Below, in pieces: positions 3,384 to 56,394 of a stretch of 64,000 nt of DNA. The notes below the pieces were generated by a model. That model had not been told where the DNA came from. It saw nothing but the letters and a program-made list of their open reading frames with translations, and did not search any database. The stretch comes from Acidimicrobiia bacterium. GTDB lineage: Bacteria > Acidobacteriota > Terriglobia > Bryobacterales > Bryobacteraceae. Location: positions 1 through 64,000 of the forward strand of contig VFZE01000021.1 in NCBI GenBank assembly GCA_016871315.1, written 5' to 3'. A program made the position numbers and the translations under genes. The first letter of the stretch is position 1. Each line of letters opens with the position of its first letter.

Positions 3384-4006
3384 GCGCATCAGCCAACTAT
3401 TGCCGTGTCTGTGGCAAGGCGCTGAGCGAACAAGAGCGCGAAACGCCCGGGGCGATCTACTGCTCGGCGTGCGCTCCGTCGGCTGCTCAGCCGCCTCCGC
3501 CGCCTCCGGCGCAGAACACCGGACCGGCCATCACCGACCCCAGTATCAGTCCTGGACTCGCCTTCCTGCTCGGCCTCATCCCCGGCGTTGGAGCCATCTA
3601 CAACGGCCAGTACGCCAAGGGACTCGTCCACGTCGTCGTCTTCGGGCTGCTCATCTCGATCGCCGCCTCCGACAATGCCGTCGGCGATCTCGGTCCGCTC
3701 ATCGGGCTGATGATTCCCGCCTGGGTTCTGTACATGGCGTTCGAGGCGTACCACACCGCCAAGCGCCGCTGCTGTGGTGAACGCGTCGATGAATTCTCCA
3801 GCCTGGTGCCCTTGAAGAGCAACGGCAAGTTCCCTGCCGCACCCATCCTGCTGATGGCCGTCGGCGTCGTACTGCTGCTCCACAATCTGGAGTTTCTGCG
3901 CATTTCCGACATCCTCAAATTCTGGCCGGCCGCGCTCATCGCGCTGGGGGCTTACATGCTGTATCTGCGCCTGGGCGGGGCCGTGGAAGAGGTGAAGCAT
4001 GAGTAA
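3380..4006 (+). CDS. Zinc-ribbon membrane protein of the sigma-factor operon
   Basis: A 208-aa protein with an N-terminal zinc-ribbon-like pair (CRVC at 9-12 and CSAC at 29-32), a short proline-rich linker, and hydrophobic segments near residues 55-75, 78-95 and 100-120. A second pair of segments at the C-terminus (about 152-200) resembles the LiaF/DUF5668-type helical hairpin that recurs in the next two genes. It overlaps both neighbours by a few bases. The family is probably a TM2-like or DUF5668-like envelope protein; no enzymatic role is visible. A role in sensing or buffering the stress signal of the sigma system is inference from context only. Confidence 0.7.
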   Translation: MSASANYCRVCGKALSEQERETPGAIYCSACAPSAAQPPPPPPAQNTGPAITDPSISPGLAFLLGLIPGVGAIYNGQYAKGLVHVVVFGLLISIAASDNAVGDLGPLIGLMIPAWVLYMAFEAYHTAKRRCCGERVDEFSSLVPLKSNGKFPAAPILLMAVGVVLLLHNLEFLRISDILKFWPAALIALGAYMLYLRLGGAVEEVKHE

Positions 4007-4196
4007 TCCGTTGATTCGCGCAATCCGAGGTCCGATCATGCTGATCGCGCTGGGCTCCCTGCTCGCGCTTGACCAGTTCGGAACCTACAGCTTCTGGCGC
4101 ACATGGCCGGCGCTGGTCATCCTCATCGGACTCATGAAACTTCTCGAGCGCGTGCTTGTTTCCGCACCCTCGCCGGAAGGGGGTCCCCAATCATGA
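3999..4196 (+). CDS. Small LiaF-like transmembrane protein (DUF5668-like)
   Basis: A 65-aa protein made almost entirely of two hydrophobic helices (about residues 9-25 and 32-50) with a short charged tail. The pattern I-x-GP-x-hydrophobic...W-P-hydrophobic matches the N-terminal hairpin of the following 483-aa protein and the C-terminal hairpin of the preceding one. It overlaps the upstream gene by 8 bp and the downstream gene by ATGA. Given its position inside a tightly coupled operon it is very likely expressed; function is unknown. Confidence 0.75.
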   Translation: MSNPLIRAIRGPIMLIALGSLLALDQFGTYSFWRTWPALVILIGLMKLLERVLVSAPSPEGGPQS

Positions 4197-9751: not shown

Positions 9752-9868
9752 TTGAACCTTATACCTACTTCAAGGTTCACAATAATAAACAGCCATGACC
9801 GCGACACCGGCCGCCTCCATCTCCAGGAGCGCTTCCGCGCCGCCATCAACTTCAGCTACTTCTTCTGA
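9752..9868 (+). pseudogene. Possible C-terminal remnant of an outer-membrane beta-barrel protein
   Basis: Between the DUF1501 stop and the HMA gene there is an open stretch ending INFSYFF followed by TGA at 9866-9868. Alternating hydrophobic/polar residues and a terminal Phe are the hallmark of the last strand of an outer-membrane barrel. No start codon or upstream barrel sequence is available, because that frame runs back into DUF1501. If real, this is the last 30 or so residues of a deleted gene. It is short and could be chance. Confidence 0.25.
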
Positions 9869-9884
9869 TATGGAAAGGAAAATC

Positions 9885-10211
9885 ATGAAACTCCTCCCGC
9901 TGCTCGCCATCCTCGCCATGCCTCTCTCCGCCGAATTCCGCCAGATCGACCTCACCATCTTCGGCATGGATTGAGCCGTCTGTGCCCACGCCGTGAGCGT
10001 CGGGATCCAAGAAGTCGAAGGCGTCGAATCCGTCAAGGTCAATCTCAACCAGGGCCTAAGGCGCGATCCCCGCCGATCAACACCTCATCCGCTTCACCGG
10101 CCTTGCAGAATAGCCGTCTCCGGCGCCTCCTCCGGCTCCGTCCACACAATCACCGCTGACGGCAACGTCGTGCAGACCAGAATCAAGCCGAACAGGATCC
10201 TCTTACGGTAG
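9885..10211 (+). CDS. Probable selenocysteine-containing HMA-domain protein, 3' half damaged
   Basis: The ATG at 9885 has AGGA about 6 bases upstream and begins a signal-peptide-like MKLLPLLAILAMPLSA. Residues 19-55 read as the first half of a heavy-metal-associated (MerP/Atx1-like) domain. Codon 30, exactly at the first Cys of GMxCxxC, is TGA (9972-9974), giving GMD-U-AVC with Cys33 as partner. The frame then continues as convincing HMA sequence to about residue 56 (VESVKVNLNQG). A SECIS-like hairpin follows the TGA and selB is at 54.5 kb. After 10056 the frame-0 sequence no longer looks like HMA and ends at 10211; a natural-looking tail (GAIPADQHLIRFTGLAE, ending at 10113) is in the +1 frame, pointing to an out-of-frame internal deletion. 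The alternative is a simple Cys-to-stop nonsense mutation in a dying gene. Confidence 0.6.
9985..10004 (+). promoter_or_regulatory. Candidate bacterial SECIS hairpin
   Basis: CCCACGC (9985-9991) pairs with GCGT plus GGG (9997-10000 and 10002-10004) around a five-base loop CGTGA (9992-9996), with one bulged C at 10001. The loop starts 17 nucleotides after the in-frame TGA and has G at its second position followed by U, meeting the usual bacterial SECIS rules (loop about 16-37 nt from UGA, G in the first two loop bases). The pairing was found by eye; folding energy was not computed. Confidence 0.55.
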
Positions 10212-10549
10212 GCCGGATCAGGCAACCACAGCCAACCCTCCATCGCCAGCGTCCCGTACACAACCCCCGCGCTAACCAGCCCCGCGAGTATCCAATACGC
10301 CTGAACAAACGACCGGTGCCGCACCTCCGTCTGCCGCTCATCCCGGCTTGTGTACGGGCGCAAGTCTCCCACAAATCCGTACTCGCGCGTCAGTCTCACC
10401 AGCGTGACCCAACACGCGAACAGAACCAGACCAGCGATGCCCACGCCTAAAACGGGCGCACCGCCGCGCTCCATTCCTGCCATTACACACAGCCCCACGT
10501 AGCTCGCGTAAAGCGTAATCACCAGCCCACGCCGCCTCGATCTGCTCAT
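10094..10549 (-). CDS. Four-helix membrane protein, partner of XRE regulator
   Basis: A 151-aa protein with four hydrophobic segments (about residues 9-26, 31-50, 86-104, 117-135) separated by a polar loop near 55-80. It lies 3 bp downstream of the small XRE regulator on the same strand; small helix-turn-helix regulators paired with membrane proteins of this type (DUF2178-like) are common in bacteria. Its 3' end overlaps the tail of the HMA gene on the opposite strand, at the site of the suspected deletion. No enzymatic motif is visible. Confidence 0.65.
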   Translation of the reverse strand: MSRSRRRGLVITLYASYVGLCVMAGMERGGAPVLGVGIAGLVLFACWVTLVRLTREYGFVGDLRPYTSRDERQTEVRHRSFVQAYWILAGLVSAGVVYGTLAMEGWLWLPDPAYRKRILFGLILVCTTLPSAVIVWTEPEEAPETAILQGR

Positions 10550-10552
10550 CGC

Positions 10553-10750
10553 TCATCCTCCTGTTGAATAGAGAATCTCGCTCATCGGTTGAAACGGCTT
10601 TCTCGAAAAGATCGCTTCAATCGGAATCCCAAAGAACTCGCTGATCCGGAACGCAAGCTCCAGACTCGGATGGAAATCCCCGCGTTCCAGATATCCAATC
10701 GTCTGGTAGCTCACATCCAGAGCCTTAGCCAGTTCCTGCCGGCGGCGCAT
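10553..10750 (-). CDS. Small XRE-family HTH regulator, N-terminus probably lost
   Basis: A 65-aa protein with a clear Cro/CI-type helix-turn-helix (ELAKALDVSYQTIGYLERG) and the ending PSLELAFRISEFFGIPIEAIF typical of YozG-like regulators. Intact members have about 15 more residues before the ELA helix. Here a stop codon lies four codons upstream of the ATG, and the upstream DNA belongs to the divergent acetyltransferase fragment. Both genes therefore appear cut at the same junction near 10747. The protein may still fold, but helix 1 is incomplete. Confidence 0.6.
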   Translation of the reverse strand: MRRRQELAKALDVSYQTIGYLERGDFHPSLELAFRISEFFGIPIEAIFSRKPFQPMSEILYSTGG

Positions 10751-11172
10751 CCCTCGGCTTCACGCAGACCCCAACAGACGACGAAGCCGCCCGATACTGG
10801 TCAACTGTCCTCGACGCTGTACAAAAAGAGGTACGCCTGCTCCTCGCCGCCCACGACGGCCCGCGCCTCATCGGCAGTCTGCAAATCGCGCTCGAACCCC
10901 GCCCCAATGGGAACCATCGTGCAGAACTCGCCAAGCTCTTCGTGCTCACCGCGTATCACCGCCGCGGCATCGCACACCAGCTCATTCAGGAAGCTCTCGC
11001 CGTTGCCCAAGCCCACGGCCGCACGCTCCTCACCATGGACACCCGGCAGGGCGGCGCCGCCGAACGTCTCTGCGAATCTCTCGGCTTCACCCGTCTCGGC
11101 GTCATCCCCGCCTACGCCCGCAGCACCGCGGGCTCGCTCGAAGCAACCACCTTCTTCTACCACCAGCTTTAG
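10747..11172 (+). pseudogene. GNAT acetyltransferase fragment lacking its N-terminus
   Basis: A continuous GNAT-like sequence runs in frame from about 10747 to the TAG at 11170: ASLGFTQTPTDDEAA, then ELAKLFVLTAYHRRGIAHQL (the acetyl-CoA-binding R/Q-x-x-G-x-G/A region), then LLTMDTRQGGAAERLCESLG and the usual TTFFYHQL end. About 30 N-terminal residues, including strand 1, are missing. No ATG, GTG or TTG exists in frame before the GTG at 10942, which would cut away half the fold. It abuts the truncated XRE gene head to head, so both were probably cut by one deletion or rearrangement. Confidence 0.72.
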
Positions 11173-53600: not shown

Positions 53601-54533
53601 TCAGCCCGGGGTGCGGTAGCCGGATCGTGCGCGCACCACGGCTCTGGGGTGTTTCTGCCGCGCTTGCGGTGTGAGCTGAACCTCGATGCGGCGAAGCTGG
53701 TCCGGTGAACCCGATGGTGCGCGATAGTGCAGGCTGTAGCGGGTGCGGATGCGCGCGATCATCTCGCGGAACGTATCCCCTGCGCGTTCGGCGCGCAGCA
53801 CCTCTCCGCCGGTTTCCTTGGCGAGGCGGAAAACGTCGGATGGAGTGAAATCGGGATTCACGTAGATGCCCGGCCTCATGGGGGCAGGCGGCTTTGCGCC
53901 GGGCGTGACGATGGCGTTCAGCACGGCGTCGGCTTCAAACAACCGGGCCAGCACCGCCTCATCAGGCGCCTGATAGTTGAGACTGCTGTTGTCGGTGAGA
54001 ATGACGATGGCGCGCCGGCCGGGCTTGGATTCGGCCTGTTTGTGCAGATAGGAAGCGGCTGTGATGAGCGAGGAGTTGATGGCAGTACCGCTGCCGACAC
54101 CGCGCTCGACAACCGAATCGCCGATGGCGTCGGCGGCAAAGTCGAGATCAGTGGTGAACTCCTGGGAGATTTTCACGTCGCGGCCAAAGAAGAGCACGGC
54201 AACGCGATCTTCCGGACCGAGGGAAGAAAGAGCGCGGCGGGCAACGGTGGCCATTTCGGTGAGCCGCTTCTTCATGCTGCCGCTCACGTCGAGCAGCAGC
54301 ACGAGCCAGAGTGGTTCCGAGTCGCGGGCGAAGTACTGAACCGCCTGCGGCGCCCCTTCGTCGAGCACAACGAAGTCCTCACGCTGAAGGCCGCTGATGA
54401 CGCGCTGTCCCTCCACCACCTGTGCGTCGACGCGGACAAGAGAGACGCCGCTGCGGAATACGGGATCCTCCGCCTGCTGCTGGCCGAAAGCAACCGAAGC
54501 CAGTAGGATGAAAAGCGTCCCCATGAGAAACAT
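53601..54533 (-). CDS. VWFA-domain protein (acidobacterial VWFA-related family)
   Basis: A 310-aa exported protein: signal peptide (cleavage near residue 18, after VAFG), a short beta region with [21 protein letters not shown], then a von Willebrand A domain with a MIDAS-like D-V-S-G-S (LLLDVSGSM near residue 84) and a Thr/Asp further on. Such proteins bind other proteins in a metal-dependent way. Its first codons overlap the start of selB on the other strand; an alternative ATG at 54524 overlaps the selB ATG itself. Confidence 0.85.
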
Positions 54534-56394
54534 TATCGTCGGTACGGCGGGTCACATCGATCATGGCAAGACGGCGCTGGTGCGCGCGCTGACGGGGATC
54601 GAGACGGACCGCCTGGAGGAGGAAAAGCGGCGGGGCATCTCGATTGACCTGGGTTTCGCTCATCTGTCACTCGACGGAGACGTGCGGTTGGGTTTTGTGG
54701 ACGTGCCCGGCCACGAGCGATTCGTGAAGAACATGCTGGCGGGCGCGGGCGGCGTGGACCTGCTGCTGCTGGTGATCGCGGCCGATGAATCGATCAAGCC
54801 GCAGACAAGAGAACACTTCGACATCTGCCGCTTGCTCGGCATTCAGCGAGGCATCGTAGTGCTGACAAAGGCGGACCTGGTGGATGCCGACCTTCTCGGG
54901 CTGGCGAAACTCGAGGCGGAGGAGTTCGTGCAGGCGTCGTTTCTGGAAGGAGCGCCGGTAGTTGCTGTCAGCTCGCGGACCGGCCAGGGGATTGAGGAGT
55001 TGAAGCGGCTGCTAAGGGAGCAGGCGCTGGAGACGGAGGAAAAAAGTTCGGCGGGCCACTTCCGGCTTCCGGTGGACCGCGTCTTCACGATGAAAGGCTT
55101 CGGTACGGTAGTGACCGGAACCTTGATCTCGGGCGCCGTGGCTGGCGAGCAGGAAGTGGAGGTGCAGCCGGGCGGGAAGAAGGCTCGCGTGCGTGGGATT
55201 CAAGTGCACGGCGCGGAGGCGGAGAAAGCGCTGGCCGGGCAGAGAACCGCGCTGAACCTGGCGGGCATGGAGCCGGAGGATTTGAGGCGCGGCGCGATGC
55301 TGGTGGAGAAGGGCCGCTTTGAAGCCACCACGATGGTTGATTGCGAGATCGAGATGCTGAGCTCGGCGAAGCCGTTGAAGCATCGCGCTCCGGTGCACTT
55401 TCATGCGTGGACCGCGGAGGTGGAGGCGCAGGTGCGCTTGTTGGAAGGCCCGGACGCAATCGCTCCGGGCGGGAAGGGATTTGCCAGGCTGCTGCTGCGC
55501 GACCCGGTGCAACTTCTGCCAGGGGACCGGTTCATCGTACGCATGTTCTCGCCCGTGGTCACGATTGGAGGAGGGCGCGTGTTGGAAATCGCACCGCCGC
55601 CACGGATGCGAAGGGCGCAGGTTCGGGAGCGGCTTGAGGTTTTCTCGAAAGGCACGGCGAGGGAGCGCGTGGAGCGGCTGGCGATGGAGGCGCGATATGG
55701 GATTAGTTTCGCCGAGTTGGTGTCACGTACAGGACTTGCCGAGGCGAACGTGGCCGACTGCCGCAACTCTCCCAAGCTGGTTCATTTCGCCGAGCCGCAG
55801 GATTGGCTGATCGATGGCGCGCGCATGCAGAGTTTGGTTGACAAGTTGCTGAAGATGGTGTCAGCGTTTCACCGCCAGAATCCGCTGCTGCCCGGCATCT
55901 CGAAGCAGGAACTGCGCAGCCGCGAATTCGCACAGGCGCCCGCCTTTCTGATGGACACGTTGCTGAAGCGCTCGCGCACGCTGGTGAGCGACGGTGAACT
56001 GTTGCGGCTGGCCTCGCACAAGCTGAACCTGCGTCAAGAAGAAGAAGAGGCGGTGGGAAAGATGGAGAAGGCGTTTCACATGGCCGGCCTGGAGGTCCCG
56101 GCTCTGAAGGCTGTGCTCATGAATTGCGGCGTGGAGCCTGCCAAGTCACGGTCGCTGCTGCAGATTCTGCTGCGGGAAGGAAGGCTGGTGCGGGTGAGCG
56201 AGGATCTGGTGTTTCACCGCGATGCGATGGAGAGCCTGAAGCAGATGATGGCGCGGCACAAGGGGGAACGCTTCGCGGTTCCGGCCTTTAAGAGCTGGAC
56301 GGGGATCAGCCGCAAGTATGCGATCCCCTTGCTTGAGTATCTGGACCGGGAAAGAGTGACGAGGCGGGAGGGTGACGAGCGGCTGGTGTTGTGA
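54523..56394 (+). CDS. selB: SelB, selenocysteine-specific translation elongation factor
   Basis: A 623-aa protein, close to the E. coli SelB length. The G domain has GHIDHGKT (residues 10-17), DVPGHERF and TKAD; EF-Tu-like domains 2-3 follow, then a C-terminal run of winged helices ending in [20 protein letters not shown] and RVTRREGD, the hallmark of the SECIS-binding WH4 domain. SelB delivers Sec-tRNA(Sec) to UGA codons followed by a SECIS hairpin. An in-frame ATG 15 bp upstream is possible. selA, selD and selC are not seen in the window. Its presence supports reading the HMA-gene TGA as selenocysteine. Confidence 0.96.

Follow-up and report, generated by a model that had tools for sequence, protein, structure and literature searches.

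A selenocysteine codon in a truncated, probably dead HMA-domain gene, inherited from an operon-linked family of putative metal-binding selenoproteins in Acidobacteriota

The in-frame TGA at 9972–9974 (plus strand) of the window (the whole stretch of 64,000 nucleotides that was analysed) is, on comparison with its relatives, a genuine selenocysteine (Sec) codon inherited from a conserved bacterial family of putative metal-binding selenoproteins. We consider it very likely that the family consists of exported, usually operon-borne HMA proteins with a U-x-x-C motif, and that the copy in the window is a recent pseudogene. The sequence-only reading of this DNA had proposed a Sec-containing metal-binding protein at this locus. 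A TGA that is a Sec codon by descent, a conserved SECIS-like hairpin, a U-x-x-C site in an HMA fold and a full Sec pathway all speak for that proposal, but a working product from the window finds no support; the N-terminal third of the gene alone survives, between deletion scars.

The reading frame from the ATG at 9885 is MKLLPLLAILAMPLSAEFRQIDLTIFGMD-TGA-AVCAHAVSVGIQEVEGVESVKVNLNQGL, and a Shine-Dalgarno-like GGAAAGGA can be read at 9872–9879 (plus strand), with the ATG 5 nt further on. What remains of the Sec-HMA gene is its 5' third, 58 codons including the TGA (9885–10058, plus strand), recognized by its Pfam HMA match and its identity to Sec relatives (57–71% over the shared part to the intact Sec copies L229, L054, L047 and L051). 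This fragment covers a signal-peptide-like start, beta1, the U-x-x-C loop, alpha1 and beta2. With the TGA read as Sec and submitted as Cys, the frame matches Pfam HMA (PF00403) with E = 3.3e-8 and 34.2 bits, above the cut-off of 24.8 bits, over profile positions 2–35 of 62 only. As had been noticed from the letters alone, the TGA stands at the first cysteine of the HMA motif and the frame continues as HMA-like sequence past it; this stretch measures 28 residues and ends at 10058. Upstream lies the remnant of another gene, the last 22 codons and stop of a barrel-like protein (ending in ERFRAAINFSYFF; 9800–9868, plus strand), which shows 64% identity by tblastn to residues 264–285 of the intact 285-aa barrel of L101.

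Relatives were sought in 399 genomes of the same class using one full-length relative as query, and in 237 genomes of the same family using the window fragment. At least 15 distinct relatives within the class (Acidobacteriota), from several families, have TGA at exactly this codon in open frames, most of them full length. The class is assigned to Acidobacteriota through G141, one of its genomes, whose protein is the same, residue for residue, as one from a named Granulicella record. When the HMA profile was run against whole genomes of the same family, further HMA frames broken by one TGA were observed, and in those that were read out the TGA again takes the place of the first motif cysteine. 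A search for TGA or Cys at this site, as the sequence-only reading had suggested, also returns Cys homologues, so that the in-frame UGA stands where homologues have Cys; these are found in Edaphobacter, Granulicella, Terriglobus, Balneolaceae and Flavobacteriaceae (the pattern used to scan the named genomes contained Cys, and hence returned Cys homologues). In a 53-member tree, the Cys clade of Acidobacteriaceae is nested inside Sec lineages, which is consistent with at least one Sec-to-Cys change, the direction depending on the root of the tree. The tree also groups the fragment with relatives from other families; horizontal transfer, which this grouping suggested, is not needed as an explanation, given an intact relative from the window's own family (L229, in genome G517).

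The five-base-loop hairpin that had been pointed out downstream of the TGA is present at 9986–10002 (plus strand), with a 6-bp stem (CCACGC/GCGUCG; 9986–9991 paired with 9997–10002) and the loop CGUGA (9992–9996). The stem starts ~11–12 nt and the loop 18 nt past the TGA. A single C-C mismatch (9987/10001) interrupts the stem; in the minimum-energy fold a C is bulged instead. By itself, the window hairpin does not exceed chance expectation (fold z = 0.15 versus shuffles; P = 0.32 under a synonymous-codon null), and the Rfam scan of the window returned no known RNA family. Its support comes entirely from relatives, where covariation is observed. Across 13 Sec members aligned without gaps, 97.4% of the stem cells are paired and 5 of the 6 pairs show compensatory changes, a result matched by none of 500 shuffles, and slid controls stay at or below 57.7% paired cells, with no more than two compensated pairs. 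RNAalifold predicts the identical stem from this alignment. Since the hairpin region is coding, synonymous codons drawn at random were used as the null: Sec members have on average 5.85 of 6 pairs versus 4.25 expected (0 out of 5000 simulations reach the Sec total), and 31 Cys homologues have 2.52 versus 2.84 expected. All Sec members have the loop CGUGN, which none of the listed Cys members shows. A hairpin soon after the UGA, its apical loop having a G close to the start, is thus shared by the family, the window copy having one mismatch, and these comparisons support its being a conserved SECIS-like element. The sequence-only reading had held that Cys homologues without hairpin conservation would weigh against it; Cys homologues do exist, but in the Sec members the hairpin is conserved.

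The window itself contains selB, the Sec-specific elongation factor, at 54532–56385 (plus strand; TIGR00475, 382.2 bits versus a cut-off of 242.25), in agreement with the sequence-only reading. That reading had also named the absence of selA, selC and selD as evidence against it, and all three are in the genome, which therefore encodes SelA (485 bits), SelB, SelD and a tRNA-Sec (anticodon TCA). Its selD (L086; G000:C12, 114032–114955, minus strand) has a TGA at the usual AGUASK site, followed 13 nt later by the hairpin GUCCAA-AGUUA-UUGGAC (6-bp stem, 5-nt loop), whose geometry is similar to that of the window hairpin. We note that this selD is itself a selenoprotein gene, and likely a live one. 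Among 26 genomes, SelA scores above its cut-off in 14 of the 16 with a TGA copy versus 0 of the 10 with a Cys copy; the two TGA-copy genomes without a SelA match are 83–85% complete. Owing to this link between codon and pathway and to the covariation of the hairpin, sequencing error or nonsense mutation is untenable as an explanation for the family. In the relatives, SelB would read the UGA by way of the downstream hairpin.

The window copy, by contrast with intact relatives, lacks a complete coding frame past the UGA. Homology starts at ~9800, where it takes in only the barrel's final 22 residues, and stops at 10058, that is, at HMA residue 58 of ~168, with residues 59 to ~168 gone. All three forward frames after 10058 score no better than shuffled sequence against the missing 110 C-terminal residues. 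The junction at which the HMA gene is lost lies at 10059–10093, between the fragment and a convergent minus-strand ORF (10094–10549). Elsewhere in the window's genome no intact HMA relative of the family, no barrel gene and no MerT-like gene was found, the only other HMA matches being a 726-aa frame and a 153-aa Cys protein with the motif GVGCASC. The same locus in one other genome of the genus gave matches to the neighboring DUF1501 gene only, and no undeleted site. A second scar is seen at 10553–11172, where an HTH gene (10553–10750, minus strand) and a GNAT gene (~10750–11172, plus strand), both missing their N-termini, meet head-to-head at ~10750 (the HTH_3 match begins at profile position 12, the Acetyltransf_1 match at position 28). 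With this scar a few hundred bases downstream, DNA seems to have been lost here more than once. Over 42 retained codons, the fragment differs from L091 at 10 first and second positions and at 18 third positions, with no surplus of amino-acid changes; this implies either a recent loss or a fragment that remains under constraint. The truncation looks recent, as the remaining codons keep the constrained pattern of intact copies. From these sequence features, the window copy is probably a recently truncated pseudogene, its operon deleted to a 260-bp relic, and most likely dead.

If the copy were instead live, its product would be a short selenopeptide, ~108 residues long and secreted, in which the U-x-x-C loop is followed by a non-homologous tail (frame open to 10208). 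In favor of this, the gene keeps its start codon, ribosome site, signal peptide and TGA along with most of the hairpin, and the codons that remain appear constrained, but such a product would have an HMA fold without beta3, alpha2 and beta4, its homology stops at residue 58, its tail has no match in any relative, and neither a barrel nor a MerT-like partner turned up in the genome; we regard a live peptide as quite unlikely. Very little probability goes to an assembly artefact, in which the organism carries the complete operon and the contig was mis-joined or collapsed at this locus. The genome is indeed a draft (166 contigs, 98.3% completeness) and the retained part is without decay; however, unrelated genes flank the relic, whose two cut ends both lie within a long contig, the genome yielded no further piece of the operon, and the neighboring HTH/GNAT pair bears a similar scar.

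That a Cys codon mutated to TGA in the window's genome alone, in an ordinary pseudogene with a hairpin arising by chance, would fit a truncated gene and a lone hairpin that is not significant by itself. It is nonetheless hardly credible, since the closest intact relatives all have TGA at the same codon together with the covarying hairpin, and for this reason the TGA is taken to be ancestral. A Sec codon inherited by a recently truncated gene remains the preferred reading.

In intact relatives, the usual gene order is an outer-membrane-barrel-like protein (~285 aa, without a Pfam match), the HMA protein and a MerT-like inner-membrane protein. This operon is found with Sec at L035, L090, L092, L093, L096, L101, L229, L230 and L234, and with Cys at L098–L100 and in many named Acidobacteriaceae. 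The order differs in Christiangramia and several Balneolaceae, where the MerT-like gene precedes the barrel gene, and at L089, L091 and L094 no MerT-like match was found at the locus. Downstream of the Sec-HMA gene of L091 there is an ArsR-like regulator with several Cys pairs (3639–4025, minus strand), a hint of metal-responsive control. Two Cys pairs are conserved in the MerT-like protein, a CC within the first membrane segment and another pair in a loop; against MerT (PF02411), the relatives' downstream membrane protein scores 14.6 bits, below the cut-off of 32.9. The barrel protein has no match in the plasmid collection. The AlphaFold model of an intact relative (mean pLDDT 87) shows an HMA fold followed by a C-terminal beta domain, and its best PDB matches are HMA domains, including MerP (1osd) and CopZ (6ff2).

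Most likely, the relatives' protein would act in the periplasm, binding a soft thiophilic metal ion such as Hg(II) or Cu(I) with Se and S as ligands; the bound metal may then be passed on to the MerT-like protein and its cysteine pairs, the direction of transport being likewise conjectural. The one pointer to a Hg- or Cu-type preference is the MerT-like gene adjoining intact relatives. Tentatively, and with a little less than even confidence, we propose that the intact relatives represent an undescribed selenium-dependent soft-metal transport operon, built from an outer-membrane barrel, a periplasmic metallochaperone with U-x-x-C and a membrane protein resembling MerT, with Sec and Cys versions across Acidobacteriota and Cys versions in Balneolota/Bacteroidota; the selenolate would serve as a metal ligand, not as a redox catalyst. 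Most known selenoproteins are redox enzymes. A family whose HMA chaperone has Sec at one of its two metal-ligand positions, and whose close Cys homologues occupy the same operon, provides a matched natural pair for studying the role of selenium in metal binding. The window copy itself is less important, being decayed, and it illustrates that a correct selenoprotein call can fall on a dead gene.

Several HMA-type selenoproteins of other kinds were observed along the way. A parallel family in the same class (L104, L105, L106, L108, L113 and L114; also L107 and L109–L112) has two TGA codons (GMxUxxUA) in a UxxU HMA protein, and the members that were folded show their own G+C-rich hairpin ~14–16 nt past the first TGA. 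This family resembles NF041115, and two tested members score 33–44 bits of the required 95. In the window's own taxonomic family, two more HMA proteins, at L034 (1977–2279; ITGMT-U-GGC) and L037 (near 1864–2346; VEGMV-U-EDC), have TGA in place of the first Cys, and the former, with 65 bits to NF041115, resembles a single-domain Sec MerP/CopZ. One genome has many clustered HMA copies, UxxU and UxxC forms among them, at L114–L115 and neighboring sites on G099:C8 (51–83 kb) and G099:C24, possibly a metal-handling island.

Among the closest known systems is NF041115 (UxxU_metal_bind, metal-binding (seleno)protein), which like the present family is HMA-type with Sec at the first motif position; the present family has UxxC rather than UxxU, is longer (~165 aa) with a C-terminal beta domain, and misses the NF041115 cut-off of 95 bits (window 28.7 bits; intact relatives 39.6–45.8 bits). 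In a 2026 review, UxxU is listed as a 'putative mercuric reductase' and a MerT selenoprotein is recorded (PMC13188914). The Global Ocean Sampling survey reported a selenoprotein MerP, a 'putative mercuric transport protein' and a UxxC P-type ATPase (PMC2398784); the first two are of the mercury-transport type seen here, MerP being a periplasmic HMA protein, and, with two sequences each in a table without the motif, they can be set against the present family by description only. NF045683 (MerT/CopZ fusion-like heavy metal transport selenoprotein) also unites an HMA part and a MerT-like membrane part in a selenoprotein, whereas here the two parts are separate adjacent genes that score 14–19 bits against a cut-off of 375. 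Operons of MerP (TIGR02052) and MerT (PF02411) likewise combine a signal peptide-bearing HMA protein with an adjacent membrane protein whose first segment has CC and which has a cysteine pair in a loop; the present family differs in having Sec for the first Cys, an extra barrel-like gene, and both proteins under the cut-offs (for MerP 92.55 bits, versus 29.6 for the window and 35.1 and 40.1 for intact relatives), and no merA was seen among the few flanking genes examined. The Cys (CxxC) homologues share the protein architecture and usually the barrel and MerT-like neighbors, but have Cys for Sec, no hairpin, and no selA above the cut-off in the 10 class genomes tested. HMA/Mer-type selenoproteins are already known (UxxU NF041115, Sec-MerP and Sec-ATPase), and we regard the operon-linked UxxC form as new, as it falls below every NCBIfam cut-off and differs in motif, length and neighborhood.
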